From Fibrobacter sp. (GTDB lineage: Bacteria > Fibrobacterota > Fibrobacteria > Fibrobacterales > Fibrobacteraceae), in NCBI GenBank assembly GCA_017615055.1, contig JAGAAW010000048.1, positions 1 to 34,080 of the forward strand: 34,080 nt of DNA, read 5' to 3'. The notes beneath the pieces are model-generated. The model saw only the letters and a list, made by a program, of their open reading frames with translations. It had not been told where the DNA came from and made no database searches. The first letter of the stretch is position 1; the number at the start of each line of letters is the position of its first letter. Below are positions 27,664 through 33,559 of this stretch, in pieces. Position numbers and translations under genes: made by a program.

Positions 27664-27698
27664 AAAAAATTCCCCGGCAATGCCGGGGGATTTTTTTT
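27664..27698. terminator. Strong bidirectional terminator
   Basis: CCCCGGC-AAT-GCCGGGG (27672-27688) with eight T residues after it (27691-27698) and six A residues before it. It ends the GH45 gene on the plus strand and probably the minus-strand operon whose last stop is at 27731. Confidence 0.92.
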
Positions 27699-27730: not shown

Positions 27731-28915
27731 TTAAAACAAGTCGCGGATGGAAAGCTTCCGTAACTTAATCCTTATCGGGATAGAACGGAAGAAATTCCTC
27801 CAGTAGGCAATTTCTCCCCAAAACATCTCCACCGGAGAGAACGGGCAAAAACGCATGGCACGCCAGCGACGGCCAAACCAACGCGTTACAAAGTTGCGGT
27901 AATTGGCCCCGTAATAAAAACCAAAGTTACCCCCGGCAATAACCTTCGCAAGCATCTGCTTGCCAAGCCCTTTATCCGGTGCACAAAGCATATACGCGCG
28001 GTCCAAGGCGTATATATGCCCCAACACCCACATGAGCGCTTTTGCAGTGCGCAGAAGTCCAAACCGGCGGAGATTCTTAGACATTTCAAGCCTATCGGAA
28101 TCGTTAGCCCGCAAAAGCAGTACATAGTAGTCGGTTAATTGCTTCAGGCCTATACCACTCGAAAGCAGATGCCTCTGGATGTGCGAAAGCTGCATCGCCA
28201 AAGCAAACTTGAGTGAAGGAACGTAGAAACCTTCCGGCACAAGTTCTACACTCTCAATTTCACGGGCTAGATAGTTCTGCAATGCTCTGTTTGTAAAGGG
28301 GTTCAGGTTTCCCGAAGAGGGCTTAAAGTGTACTTCGACGTTGACTCCGTTACACTTTTGGAGCAAATGCACGTGGTGACCAGAAAGAGAAAGTTTCTCC
28401 CGAGCGAGGGCATAAAGTTCTTCACGGGACTTCCCCCGTGAAAAGAAGAATGACCCCGACGGTTCAGTGATCATCATCCCGAGTTTCTGCAACAAGGCAA
28501 CCACGCCCTCTCGCCCGCCCTCTACCCAGATATCGATATCACCCGCTTGGCGGATAAACGCATCAGGGTAAAGCCTAGCGTTTGCAGCGCCCTTCAGTAT
28601 AGCAGAACGCCTCCCCTGGTCCGCAAAAAGTTCGGTAAGCCGCTTGGCCTCATCGTTCACCATGCGGTTATGCCCACGAATCGCCTCCGCCTCGCTCGCC
28701 CACTGGAACGCGAGATCCAACGGCGGCCGCCGATCCTTCGGCAACTTGCAGACACCCGCATACGCGATGCCCACCACAGATAGCTTGGAGGCGAGAGAAT
28801 ACAAAAGAGACCACTCTTCAGCGGTCTCTACGTTGAAATTTGCAGACTCATCCTTACCCGCACCGAATGCGAGCCGAATGAGGGTAAAGAGATTACGTTC
28901 AGACAGAATACTCAC
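27731..28915 (-). CDS. NTP_transf_5-type nucleotidyltransferase
   Basis: This 394-residue protein matches the uncharacterised nucleotidyltransferase family NTP_transf_5. It has SAILKGAANARLYPD (about 105-118) followed by RQAGDIDIWV with the metal-binding D126 and D128, then the helical C-terminal half usual for the family. It begins with GTG at 28915, one base of which belongs to the TAG of the upstream short peptide (TAGTG), and CAGG lies 4 nt before, so its translation is coupled to that peptide. Members of this family occur as tailoring enzymes in some lasso-peptide clusters (paeninodin type). What it modifies here is unknown; the two short peptides upstream are the obvious candidates. Last gene of the operon. 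Confidence 0.8.
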   Translation of the reverse strand: MSILSERNLFTLIRLAFGAGKDESANFNVETAEEWSLLYSLASKLSVVGIAYAGVCKLPKDRRPPLDLAFQWASEAEAIRGHNRMVNDEAKRLTELFADQGRRSAILKGAANARLYPDAFIRQAGDIDIWVEGGREGVVALLQKLGMMITEPSGSFFFSRGKSREELYALAREKLSLSGHHVHLLQKCNGVNVEVHFKPSSGNLNPFTNRALQNYLAREIESVELVPEGFYVPSLKFALAMQLSHIQRHLLSSGIGLKQLTDYYVLLLRANDSDRLEMSKNLRRFGLLRTAKALMWVLGHIYALDRAYMLCAPDKGLGKQMLAKVIAGGNFGFYYGANYRNFVTRWFGRRWRAMRFCPFSPVEMFWGEIAYWRNFFRSIPIRIKLRKLSIRDLF

Positions 28916-29061
28916 TAAACCTGAACAGGCGTATCATTCGGATTATCGTTATAATTCAGAATAATCGTATTAGAATCAATAAGCAACAAATCACTCTTAT
29001 TCCGAAGTGAAATGACTCTTACTGATGGAGCCTCATATTCTTTTTTTTGAATAAACACCAT
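28915..29061 (-). CDS. Short peptide 2 (48 residues), candidate RiPP-like precursor
   Basis: ATG 29061 to TAG 28915, with AAAGG 7 nt before the start. The N-terminal half reads IQKKEYEAPSVRVISL, matching the leader of the 41-residue peptide upstream (KKxYExPxxxVxx[IL]). The second half is quite different: a hydrophobic LLLIDSNTIIL stretch followed by an Asn/Asp/Pro-rich end (NYNDNPNDTPVQV) without cysteine. No signal peptide of Sec type. Stop and downstream GTG overlap by one base. Too short for ordinary ORF calling. Supported as real by ribosome-binding site, coupling, and leader shared with its neighbour; role is inference. Confidence 0.7.
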   Translation of the reverse strand: MVFIQKKEYEAPSVRVISLRNKSDLLLIDSNTIILNYNDNPNDTPVQV

Positions 29062-29079
29062 ATTCACGCCTTTATAGTT

Positions 29080-29205
29080 TTATGGAGTCTGAACTTCAAA
29101 TTCATCGGGGCAAGAACCGCCACAACTACCACATAAAGGTTTTAAATCGGAAGCAATTTTAACAACCTTCATTTCTGGCTTTTCATAAGTTTTCTTTTCA
29201 TCCAT
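29080..29205 (-). CDS. Short peptide 1 (41 residues), Cys-rich candidate RiPP-like precursor
   Basis: ATG 29205 to TAA 29080, starting 6 nt after the stop of the giant surface-protein gene, with GAGG 9 nt before the ATG. Leader: MDEKKTYEKPEMKVVKIASD, containing Y7-x-x-P10. The tail has C25, C28 and C32 in LCGSCGGSCPD, a small Gly/Ser/Cys cluster, and ends EFEVQTP. Tyr-x-x-Pro leaders are bound by recognition elements in lasso-peptide and related systems, and the Cys cluster could be a modification or metal-binding site. Similar YxKP-type short peptides of unknown role occur in Bacteroidetes, so a non-RiPP function remains possible. 18 nt separate it from peptide 2. Confidence 0.7.
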   Translation of the reverse strand: MDEKKTYEKPEMKVVKIASDLKPLCGSCGGSCPDEFEVQTP

Positions 29206-29211
29206 GGTATT

Positions 29212-32200
29212 TTACCTCACAATTATGCGCTTACCATTATAGTAATATGTACCCTGGGTCGTTGGCTTGCCGTTGAGTTTACGACCACTTAAATCGTACC
29301 AGCGATCCATTTTTAGTTCGCCAGTTTTGGAATTCAACGCACCTCCACCAATAACTCGACCGTTTTTCCCAACAATTTCAATTTCGAATTCTTCCGGAAG
29401 TGTACTCAAATCAGCAAAACGTTCAACCAATCTAGACGATTTCGTTAGCACCTTAGATTCGTCATAAGCAAGGTACGCACGCATCGGCAGAACAGCCGCT
29501 GGCTGGTTTTTATTTTTAATTCTAAAGAACTTCCCTATCGTCAATCCCTTTGTCGGATTTTCTATACCAGAATACCCATATGCATAATCCCATTCTGGAT
29601 GATCTTCATTTATAACGACCGTTTCATAAGATCCTTTAAAAACCCAGCCATTATATACAACCTGTTCTGGCTCTTTTGTAATTAATGAAACAGGTTTATC
29701 CAAAACAAAGTTTATGTTTGTTTCAGAAGGAAGATAAACATAGGGACGACCCGCTTTTAATTCATTTCCGTCAGGCACCTTAACAATAAATTTCCATTTT
29801 CCCGTGGAATTATCAATCGATTCAAATTCCCAGAAATCACCACACTTAGATTTACCACATTGAACTTCATTCAAACTAACTGTAAACGGGAACATAACCG
29901 TTGACATAGCATTTACAGTAAACGTACGATTGAAAATCACATGGTCTACAACTACATTGTCGCTCTCAGGAATACTAACATCTTCTTGATTAGAGTTTTC
30001 GTTATTGATTTCAGCACGAGTACCAGTTTCATCTGTAAGAATTACGACATTGCCATAGTTCTTCACAACCTGAGCCACAACAGAGATCGTTCCAGGCACA
30101 GACTCAATATACCCTTCAAACGAAGTAGTAATGTCCACGTCTCCATCTTTAATGACAACGTTGCAAGATGCGGTCTTTTCACCATCCTTAACATCCGTCA
30201 CATGTTCACTAGAAGTTGCCGTGATTGTATATCCCCAAGGATTATCCGCAGCAATTTCACATTCTGCACTGTGCGGATTTGCATCATATTCAAACACCTG
30301 CGATATTGCAGTGACTGTAATCGTCGACGGAACAGGACTCCACTGAGCCATAAGCGTCCTATTGCCGAAGGAGCCCGCCGGCAAAGCAGTCACAACGTCG
30401 CCGGTCACTCCATCAAGCCAACCTGCGAACGAGAATCCAACTCTTTCATTCGGAGTAGCAAGAGCAAGTTCGCCCGATTCAACCGTAAACGTGAAGGAAG
30501 TATTCCCTTCCATCGAGCCACCAGCCAAATCGTATGTTGCGGTATATTCAGCAGCAGTCCAACTAGCTGTGAAGGACTTTGCTCCCGTGGAGTTAAGCGC
30601 AATCGCTGTTACAGCTTCGCCATTAGCATCATCCGTCCACCCGGCAAAAACATAACCAGACTTTGTCGGAATAGGAAGATCAAACTCAGACTCAACAGTG
30701 TAAGTCACAGGAGTCCCTTCAGGAAGGGCGCCTCCATCGAGATTATATGTAATAATGTATTCGTCAGCCTTCCAATACGGATACAAGGTCAAGTCAGCAT
30801 TTTCATCATAGGAAGCACCCAGGTCATAATCTTTGCCACCTTTATCAGTCGTAGACCAGCCATCAAGAGTATAGTTTTCGCGCACATACTTGTCGATAGC
30901 GTCCTTGAACGTATACAATTGATCCTTAGTTTTATATTCTGTCAAATCCTTTGCCCCAGAGCCACTCAACACTTCACCAGGTTTATACACAATTTTATTT
31001 TGCCACTTGGCATAGAGCGTCAAATCCGCATCAATGTTACGGATTTCTTCCACCTGATTTTCGAAGGTATTTTCTTTGAACCATCCGGCAAAAGTGAAAC
31101 CCGTATAGGATGCTTTATTAAGAGTAAAAGGTACCGGTCCCATGTATGACGATATGTTGTTAACATTGTTCGTACCGCCATTCAGTTCGTAGTCAACATG
31201 ATATGTATTGCACGTCCAATGAGGGTAGAGCGTATCAGTGACATTTTTCTTATATATCGCACCAAGCGCGAATTCTATGTCGCCATTATCTGTTCCAGCC
31301 CAACCATCCTGAGTACAACCTTTAATCTTGAATTCCTCCACGGCACCTTTAAGCGTTGTATCCCTACCCCATTCCTTTATGGCCGCAGAAATCGTCCCAG
31401 AAACATTATGACCGGAAAGATAAACAATATAAAGCTTAGTCGGTTTCCACTGTCCATATATGGTCAAATCACCATAATCGCCTGCGACAGTCTGAGTAGC
31501 CCGCTGAGTAAAACCGTCATCATAGTACCAACCGGCAAAATCATACCCCTCCTTGGTCGGATTCTCCGGGAAGACAATTCCATGTTCAATATCATATTCC
31601 GATGAAGAAACCGAACCGCCATCATTATAGGTAACGGTATAATTTTTCAAGTCCCAATGAGCATAGAGAACAGTGCTTGAGTGAATTTTTGTTTCGGCAA
31701 AATTAAAGCTAGAAGCTGCACCATCAAGATACCATCCAGCAAACACATAACCCGAGTCAACTTCGATGGTTTCCGCATTCGGTTCTGGGACCAAATCATT
31801 TTCATCGACTTCTACAAATTCAACCTTGGTTTTGCCATGACCATCAGCATGGAACGTCACCGTATATGTTTCTTTCGCGGTCCAAATGGCATAGAGAGTC
31901 GTGTCTTTTGTTGCAAACGTATTCAAAGCATTCAAGTCGATAGCCTGTTCAACAGAGGCGCCCTTGTCAAAAGCCCAGCCCCTAAAATACATCCACACAC
32001 CACCATCACAATTTTCACCATTAACAGTACCCGTGCAATAAGTTTCAGGAAGCGGTTCAATTCCTTCAACGGTAATCGGATCACCCGGATCAACAATCTT
32101 GGTTTTGACCGTAGGGAAAGGTTGTGTTTCAGAAGGGAAATAGCCATCATCAGCATCAAAGGCAATAGTAAAAGCCAACGTCCACACGGCATAAATCGTA

Positions 32201-33480
32201 GTAGATGCAGTCGCGTTTCCCAAACTTGCCGAGGGAGCCAGGGCAGTAGATGTTGTAGCCCAACCAAGGAACTTGTAACCTTCGCGAGCAGGCTTTGTAA
32301 TTTCGTCATCGGTAATCAGAACATTTTTTGCAACTACCTTGTGCGTTTTCGCGCCTTCGCCGAAGGCTCCTTCATTTGCATCAAATGTTACCATGTAACC
32401 ATCGGAACCATTCAAGGAAACGATATCTTGTCCAACAGACCATACACTAGATGAAGCATTTTTACAAACACCATCCTCCCAGGTTCCTCCATTCAAGCCA
32501 CAAACCACATCTTCGGAATTAACATCAGGCACACCATTCGCCTGTCCTGTCGTGATATTTCCCTTTCCAATACCACCTGCAACAACATCCGAGTCATAGT
32601 AGGTGTTTTGGACATTCAACCCATCCTTGGTGCTTTGCCCGACAACGCCTCCAGACTTGCCATTGCCTGCATTGACTATGCCAGTCCCAGTATATGCGCA
32701 AGAATTAATGTTGACATTGCCCTTCGTATAACCAGCAATACCACCAACAAAAGCATTATTTCCACTCACATATATGGTAACTTCACTCACGCAATTTTCA
32801 ATCGTACCGCTGGCAGAATTGCCAACAATACCACCAACCCCCTGTCCATCACCGCTCGTAGTTATTGAACCCGTAACATAAATTCCAGAAATGGTCCCCG
32901 CTTCCTGCCAACCAACAAGGGAACCTACCGAAATCGGCTTTCCCTTACCCAAGATACTGCCTTCACCATTGGAAGCCTGGATATCGACAACTTCCAAAAT
33001 CAAGTCCTTTACAACACCACCCGTACTTAACGTTCCGATAAAACCAACATTCTGGCCATTACAATTCGGTTTTTTATCTTTTTCCGTGCAATAAACATTG
33101 GTTTGCACGTTAGCAAGTTGAGCCCCATCTGTATACAAGCCAGAAATCTTGTGACCATCGCCATCAAAAGTTCCCTTGAACTTGGTATCGCCCTTACCAG
33201 AAGCAATCGGCATCCACAGATGACCGCCCAAATCCATGTCTTTCAGCAACTTAGCATTAATGTTTGACCGAATATTTGCATTATCCTTTGTAGTCGTATC
33301 CGTCTCCGCAGCAAACCAGGCCAATTGCGCTTCGTTCGCAATCAAATAGAACTGTTTCCCGTCAATGGTGGCAGAATCTGGCCTTTCCTTCGAAACTCCA
33401 TCCCATGCACCAAAACTCTGGCCGAAGACGGTCAGTAAAACGAATAGGGTCAGAAACTTAATGTCTTTTAAGTAATGCAT
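29212..33480 (-). CDS. Giant InlB/B-repeat surface protein with GLUG motifs and T9SS-like C-terminus
   Basis: This 1422-residue exported protein has a signal peptide (MHYLKDIKFLTLFVLLTVFGQSFG, cleaved before AWDG). The first 300 residues have GLUG-type repeats (VGGIVGNSASGTIENC, FVGGIAGYTKGNVNINSC). About 360-1045 hold nine InlB-like B repeats, each of the form YTVTYxxxGG ... GYxFAGWYxD ... TLYAxW. Residues about 1046-1340 form an unassigned beta-rich region. The last roughly 30 residues (MDRWYDLSGRKLNGKP ... GTYYYNGKRIIVR) resemble the C-terminal sorting signal of type IX secretion. The frame is open 23 codons upstream, but ATG 33480 has GAGGG before it and starts the signal peptide. A+T-rich relative to the nuo region. 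Probably an adhesin or surface scaffold. Confidence 0.88.
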   Translation of the reverse strand: MHYLKDIKFLTLFVLLTVFGQSFGAWDGVSKERPDSATIDGKQFYLIANEAQLAWFAAETDTTTKDNANIRSNINAKLLKDMDLGGHLWMPIASGKGDTKFKGTFDGDGHKISGLYTDGAQLANVQTNVYCTEKDKKPNCNGQNVGFIGTLSTGGVVKDLILEVVDIQASNGEGSILGKGKPISVGSLVGWQEAGTISGIYVTGSITTSGDGQGVGGIVGNSASGTIENCVSEVTIYVSGNNAFVGGIAGYTKGNVNINSCAYTGTGIVNAGNGKSGGVVGQSTKDGLNVQNTYYDSDVVAGGIGKGNITTGQANGVPDVNSEDVVCGLNGGTWEDGVCKNASSSVWSVGQDIVSLNGSDGYMVTFDANEGAFGEGAKTHKVVAKNVLITDDEITKPAREGYKFLGWATTSTALAPSASLGNATASTTIYAVWTLAFTIAFDADDGYFPSETQPFPTVKTKIVDPGDPITVEGIEPLPETYCTGTVNGENCDGGVWMYFRGWAFDKGASVEQAIDLNALNTFATKDTTLYAIWTAKETYTVTFHADGHGKTKVEFVEVDENDLVPEPNAETIEVDSGYVFAGWYLDGAASSFNFAETKIHSSTVLYAHWDLKNYTVTYNDGGSVSSSEYDIEHGIVFPENPTKEGYDFAGWYYDDGFTQRATQTVAGDYGDLTIYGQWKPTKLYIVYLSGHNVSGTISAAIKEWGRDTTLKGAVEEFKIKGCTQDGWAGTDNGDIEFALGAIYKKNVTDTLYPHWTCNTYHVDYELNGGTNNVNNISSYMGPVPFTLNKASYTGFTFAGWFKENTFENQVEEIRNIDADLTLYAKWQNKIVYKPGEVLSGSGAKDLTEYKTKDQLYTFKDAIDKYVRENYTLDGWSTTDKGGKDYDLGASYDENADLTLYPYWKADEYIITYNLDGGALPEGTPVTYTVESEFDLPIPTKSGYVFAGWTDDANGEAVTAIALNSTGAKSFTASWTAAEYTATYDLAGGSMEGNTSFTFTVESGELALATPNERVGFSFAGWLDGVTGDVVTALPAGSFGNRTLMAQWSPVPSTITVTAISQVFEYDANPHSAECEIAADNPWGYTITATSSEHVTDVKDGEKTASCNVVIKDGDVDITTSFEGYIESVPGTISVVAQVVKNYGNVVILTDETGTRAEINNENSNQEDVSIPESDNVVVDHVIFNRTFTVNAMSTVMFPFTVSLNEVQCGKSKCGDFWEFESIDNSTGKWKFIVKVPDGNELKAGRPYVYLPSETNINFVLDKPVSLITKEPEQVVYNGWVFKGSYETVVINEDHPEWDYAYGYSGIENPTKGLTIGKFFRIKNKNQPAAVLPMRAYLAYDESKVLTKSSRLVERFADLSTLPEEFEIEIVGKNGRVIGGGALNSKTGELKMDRWYDLSGRKLNGKPTTQGTYYYNGKRIIVR

Positions 33481-33507
33481 ATAGCTAGCCCTCTTTTTTT
33501 GTAAAAA

Positions 33508-33536
33508 ATAGTAAATTTCGCCGTTTTTAGTGTAAA
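33508..33536 (-). promoter_or_regulatory. Promoter of the surface-protein/short-peptide operon
   Basis: Minus strand: TTTACA (33536-33531), exactly 17 nt, TACTAT (33513-33508), leaving a leader of about 20 nt with GAGGG before ATG 33480. Good match in both boxes and spacing. Confidence 0.7.
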
Positions 33537-33559
33537 GTATTACAAACAAAGTGCCGAAT

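Follow-up and report, generated by a model that had tools for sequence, protein, structure and literature searches.

The locus described here, from a rumen Fibrobacter, probably provides the substrates and a tailoring enzyme of a RiPP system resembling the linear polyphosphorylated peptides (LPPs), with a maturation cassette that acts in trans. It was found in a 34,080-nucleotide stretch of DNA (hereafter the window), which is the whole of contig C156 of a 2.93-Mb Fibrobacter sp. MAG (77% complete, 4.5% contamination). On the minus strand the gene order is a 1445-aa ORF, peptide 1, peptide 2 and a gene of the NTP_transf_5 family. Features of this locus and of the cassette are summarized in Table 1.

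Table 1. Features of the window locus and of the maturation cassette on contig C136 of the same MAG.
Feature	Coordinates	Strand	Remarks
NTP_transf_5 (PF14907) polymerase-beta-type nucleotidyltransferase	27731..28915	-	394 aa, GTG start
Precursor peptide 2, ..KKEYEAPSVRVISLRNKSDLLLIDSNTIILNYNDNPNDTPVQV	28915..29067 (from ATG: 28915-29061)	-	TAG overlapping NTP_transf_5 GTG
Precursor peptide 1, MDEKKTYEKPEMKVVKIASDLKPLCGSCGGSCPDEFEVQTP	29080..29205	-	Ser at Y+20
Large secreted repeat protein, GLUG and Listeria-Bacteroides repeats	29212..33480	-	PF09479 E 1.8e-60, PF07581
C-terminal domain common to peptide-paired secreted proteins, ..NSKTGELKMDRWYDLSGRKLNGKPTTQGTYYYNGKRIIVR	29212..29394	-	protein alignment
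Intrinsic-terminator-like stem and T-run 3′ of NTP_transf_5	27672..27688	-	consensus match only
HprK-like kinase	C136 26795-27679	-	weak HprK-family matches and motifs
S26-like (signal-peptidase-like) protease	C136 26349-26798	-	TIGR02228, fold, Ser-His-Asp
PqqD	C136 26083-26352	-	PF05402 E 2e-14
ABC exporter (MsbA-like)	C136 24437-26110	-	part of C136 cassette

The ORF of the secreted protein spans positions 29212-33549, its likely start is the ATG at 33480, and its N-terminus is signal-like. Six bp separate its end from peptide 1, and 12 bp lie between the two peptide genes. The stop codon of peptide 2 and the start codon of the NTP_transf_5 gene share one base (TAGTG), an overlap described in the first-pass annotation and confirmed by the ORF coordinates. 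Peptide 2 more likely starts at the ATG at 29061, since the codon further upstream differs in the nearest relative (TTG, versus GTG here). Judging from the gene spacing, both peptides are probably co-transcribed with the secreted repeat protein and NTP_transf_5. The terminator-like element is common to NTP_transf_5 and a convergent GH45 gene.

In a search of their own genome with the peptide profile, peptides 1 and 2 were matched with E-values of 8.9e-12 and 3.5e-10, respectively. Tyr and the Pro at +3 are both present in 100% of 82 distinct Fibrobacter peptides, a set gathered by profile and counted on the Y..P pattern, which bears on this invariance. Numbered from the Tyr, the same peptides have Leu+16 in 91%, Leu+17 in 78% and Ser+20 in 87% of cases, and their segment past the predicted cut is short (median 18 aa) and acidic. 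Peptide 2 carries its Ser at +21 instead of +20. Ser+20 is also found in 97% of 30 peptides from Prevotella and other Bacteroidales, which were found with the Fibrobacter profile and hence are not fully independent. Purifying selection acts on the peptide genes (pS 0.233, pN 0.048; seven pairs); chance occurrence of small ORFs was rejected on the basis of background density, this selection and the profile statistics. At locus L092 of the relative G063, peptide 2 has the same amino acids after the start codon, and its gene differs by one synonymous and one start-codon change. Tandem peptides (pairs such as those of L051, L055 and L066) are of two kinds, the first ending like DSFEVIIKDRP and the second like GFAPFKQDPLA; these are possibly two-component products.

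Genes encoding a PqqD-type RRE, an HprK-like kinase, an S26-like protease and an ABC exporter are missing from the window, and all four were identified on contig C136, with no peptide or NTP_transf_5 gene beside them. The first-pass annotation had noted the lack of protease, RRE and transporter genes in the window, and had proposed a system either minimal or supplied in trans. The absence was borne out, and a genome search that it suggested for PqqD-like and ABC transporter genes found both in the cassette; the trans alternative thus stands, while a minimal, nucleotidylation-only system was rejected because the maturation cassette is present in the same genome. The C136 kinase is 61% identical to that of L036, and the cassette genes have the same strand and order. 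The kinase P-loop (GKSGTGKST) and DD motif (LLNDDNPVVR) are conserved. The protease matches TIGR02228 with E 3e-6 to 1e-4, under the family cut-off; its fold matches LexA/UmuD and the E. coli signal peptidase (Z 8.4, 96 residues, 2.4 A), and S30, H68 and D83 are invariant. The kinase and protease assignments combine weak profile matches (E 1e-3 to 1e-6) with motifs and, for the protease, the fold. Searching PDB sequences with the profiles of kinase, protease and NTP_transf_5 yielded no useful match. In G063 both loci are located on one 128-kb contig, C17 (L092 and L194), with about 76 kb between them (NTP_transf_5 at C17:92498, kinase at C17:15915), so binning alone does not account for the split. 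Kinase and protease are fused in one ORF at L056:7669-9081, L124:7394-8761 and L137:870-2189.

A recurring gene order was distinguished in Fibrobacter: secreted protein, one to three YxxPxM peptides, NTP_transf_5, a kinase of ~300 aa, a protease of ~150 aa, an 89-aa PqqD and the ABC exporter. Complete clusters with all seven parts in this order are present in some genomes. NTP_transf_5 is located within 4.5 kb of the kinase at 49 of 72 kinase loci; no copy lies within this distance at the remaining 23. There is one kinase per Fibrobacter genome, as against 379 peptide matches dispersed across 80 genomes (up to 13 per genome). Many peptide genes lack an adjacent NTP_transf_5 because the system acts in trans. 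One enzyme set apparently serves many unlinked precursor genes, and mining based on gene neighbourhood would miss most of the peptides. Among 40 good genomes (≥90% complete, ≤5% contaminated), kinase, NTP_transf_5 and peptides are all present in 37 and all absent from three; the Fisher value for this co-occurrence (1e-4) overstates independence, since the genomes are related. In one 100%-complete genome, which has peptides and NTP_transf_5, the kinase gene extends over two frames (G003:C2:368303-369161, L190), possibly a broken gene or an assembly error.

The nucleotidyltransferase of the window matches PF14907 with E 5e-44 (151 bits; gathering cut-off 31.2) and is the sole copy found in the MAG. 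Its catalytic G-D-I-D and E-x-H positions are kept, and in the family alignment GDID and the later Glu show no or hardly any variation. An AF2 model (pLDDT 89.4) has the fold of DNA polymerase beta-type nucleotidyltransferases, with MenT1 (8an4; Z 12.3, 168 residues) and ANT(2″)-Ia (Z about 10.7) as the nearest structures. In the NTP_transf_5 tree, the window copy belongs to a clade of six rows, all peptide-linked (support 100/99), and each of the six genomes has the kinase elsewhere. PF14907 is present in 75 of 80 Fibrobacter genomes. Among 67 Fibrobacter NTP_transf_5 genes, a homologous peptide on the same strand lies no more than 2.5 kb upstream of 38 (expected 0.0019 per gene); one has a peptide downstream and none has one on the opposite strand. 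The earlier proposal of a unit made up of the enzyme and the YExP peptides is upheld. That the enzyme always accompanies such peptides was true of most genes, not all: 47 of the 67 have an adjacent peptide and/or kinase, and 20 have neither.

The unlinked NTP_transf_5 genes (L042, L046, L047, L058, L059, L074, L087 and others) include seven that form one clade of the tree; such copies may have a different role or act in trans. Compared with its nearest relative, the window gene is a mosaic (27731-28915 versus L092:7720-8898), with 86-91% DNA identity over the first ~120 codons and 55-69% over the rest, while the adjoining peptides are 96-99% identical. This pattern suggests recombination within the NTP_transf_5 gene.

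Nearly all sampled peptide genes are preceded, at a median distance of 19 bp, by a gene whose secreted product has a common C-terminus, and the same secreted-protein gene lies upstream of the peptides in relatives of the window genome. The exceptions are L179, L182, L192, L040 and L065. The paired proteins have a mostly signal-like N-terminus and end in the common pattern ..NTxTGE....WFDLKGRKLN.KP..KGTYY.NGKKVI.K. When three genomes were searched with a profile of this tail, 19 genes were found and a peptide gene was next in 17, although the profile was built from peptide-paired proteins and favours such tails. Neither NCBIfam nor Pfam recognized the shared domain. By eye it may be a T9SS sorting tail, and tails of this type have been proposed in F. 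succinogenes (PMC6851124). The pairing is repeated at several Prevotella loci. Such pairing suggests that the peptide product and the secreted protein work together at the cell surface.

LPPs are RiPPs reported in May 2026 and exemplified by the lpp cluster of Paenibacillus alginolyticus (Popov et al., PMC13381572). Their machinery consists of a SipW-like (archaeal-type signal-peptidase-like) protease LppS, a discrete RRE LppB, an HprK-like kinase LppK, an NTP transferase LppN and an MsbA-like exporter LppD; the peptides have YxxP leaders, are cut two residues N-terminal of a Ser and are phosphorylated up to four times on this Ser3 (PMC13381572). The Fibrobacter system has the same five protein types: a signal-peptidase-like peptidase with the Ser-His-Asp residues (TIGR02228 below cut-off, LexA/SPase fold), a discrete PqqD-type RRE, an HprK-like kinase, an NTP transferase and an MsbA-like exporter. 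Neither a macrolactam cyclase nor a B2 protease accompanies them, and the YxxP leader and a conserved Ser (core position 3 in LPPs) are shared. The leader motifs, YxxPxMxVV..L....LLxxS here and YxxPxVLxHQxIxFETxxS in LPPs, have Tyr, Pro and Ser in common but differ in the middle, in the Tyr-to-Ser spacing (20 versus 18) and in the residues before the cut (Leu-Leu versus Glu-Thr). LPP genes are clustered, with one to three precursors, near capsule loci of Bacillota, whereas the present system occurs in Fibrobacterota and Bacteroidota, with dispersed precursors usually paired with a secreted protein and often a single trans cassette. Precursors and enzymes are together at the 49 clustered kinase loci but split in the window genome and at the 23 others, so we classify the system as an LPP-like variant and not as a plain LPP member. 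More distant kinase and PqqD relatives (E 1e-2 to 1e-6) are those of the HPr-rel-A system/SynChlorMet cassette (TIGR04352/TIGR04353, ScmC/ScmD); these two models were not matched above cut-off (20 of 200 bits and 16-20 of 35 bits).

By analogy with LPP and lasso RREs, the PqqD-type protein of C136 would bind the YxxPxM leader, and the kinase would then, like LppK, phosphorylate the conserved Ser ~20 residues past the Tyr. NTP_transf_5 may next modify the phosphoserine, by nucleotidylation or by glycosylation as reported for PsmN; this is the least certain step. The predicted cut by the protease follows the conserved Leu-Leu and leaves two residues ahead of the Ser, and the exporter would release the product as a linear peptide that is short and acidic. 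The role of this product in relation to the paired secreted protein is likewise among the least certain points. As one possibility among others, we tentatively propose that the mature product, a phospho- or glycophosphopeptide, serves the upstream protein specifically, for instance as anchor, sorting cofactor or displayed ligand, and recognizes it by the shared C-terminal domain. In that case a single modification cassette would equip many surface proteins of both Fibrobacter and Prevotella. This peptide family has had no function so far, and its close association with surface proteins points to one that can be tested.

The phosphorylated lasso peptides paeninodin, pseudomycoidin and Bsf share with this system the HprK-like kinase, the PqqD RRE, an ABC exporter, a YxxP or WxxP leader and the NTP transferase (PsmN, BsfN), which agrees with the first-pass statement that this family includes lasso tailoring enzymes. 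It is nevertheless highly improbable that the window carries a lasso-peptide locus or remnant, with NTP_transf_5 as tailoring enzyme and the cyclase and B2 protease elsewhere. LasB2 (Transglut_core3, PF13471) was found in none of the 80 Fibrobacter genomes, and the 40 good genomes nearly suffice by themselves to refute the reading as regards B2. The suggested search for lasC-like genes gave only partial Asn_synthase (PP-loop) matches of ~50-90 positions, in 41 genomes, and the S26-like protease replaces B2 in every complete cluster seen. The lasso reading was rejected on these grounds.

It is also conceivable, if unlikely, that NTP_transf_5 does not tailor peptides and has another role (e.g. 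on tRNA or surface polysaccharide), being in the operon by chance or co-regulation. Its fold is nearest to the tRNA-modifying MenT toxins and ANT(2″), some copies are unlinked, and the LPP study detected no effect of an lppN deletion (PMC13381572). Against this reading stand the excess of copies directly downstream of peptides, the proximity to most kinase loci, and the same NTP_transf_5 neighbourhood in Prevotella and Phocaeicola. We consider it quite improbable, too, that the peptides, instead of being exported products, regulate or chaperone the secreted repeat protein inside the cell or in the periplasm, the cassette serving other substrates. Their almost constant position 3′ of genes for secreted proteins with the common C-terminal domain would suit such a role, but the conserved Ser and Leu-Leu after the YxxP leader, and the co-loss with the kinase, tie them to the cassette.

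LPPs have been called restricted to Bacillota (PMC13381572). A family of RiPPs whose 2026 description limits it to that phylum appears, with homologous machinery, in most sampled Fibrobacter genomes and, judged by the kinase, in the Segatella/Prevotella family. The arrangement in Prevotella is the same as in Fibrobacter. The kinase profile matched 122 of 151 sampled genomes of the Segatella baroniae family (Segatella/Prevotella), among which weaker partial matches may be other HprK relatives. The system is not mentioned in the covered parts of papers on Bacteroidales RiPPs and rumen bacteriocins. A plasmid-borne LPP-type cluster of Butyrivibrio (Bacillota) matches the Fibrobacter profiles for the kinase (1e-22), protease (1e-22), PqqD (2e-13), ABC exporter (2e-86) and NTP_transf_5 (9e-7) and has a YVKPEL peptide; judging by these matches, it links the LPPs and the Fibrobacter system. 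Human-associated Bacteroidota, namely Prevotella sp. oral taxon 299 (L245) and Phocaeicola massiliensis (L247), likewise carry the kinase/protease/PqqD cassette.
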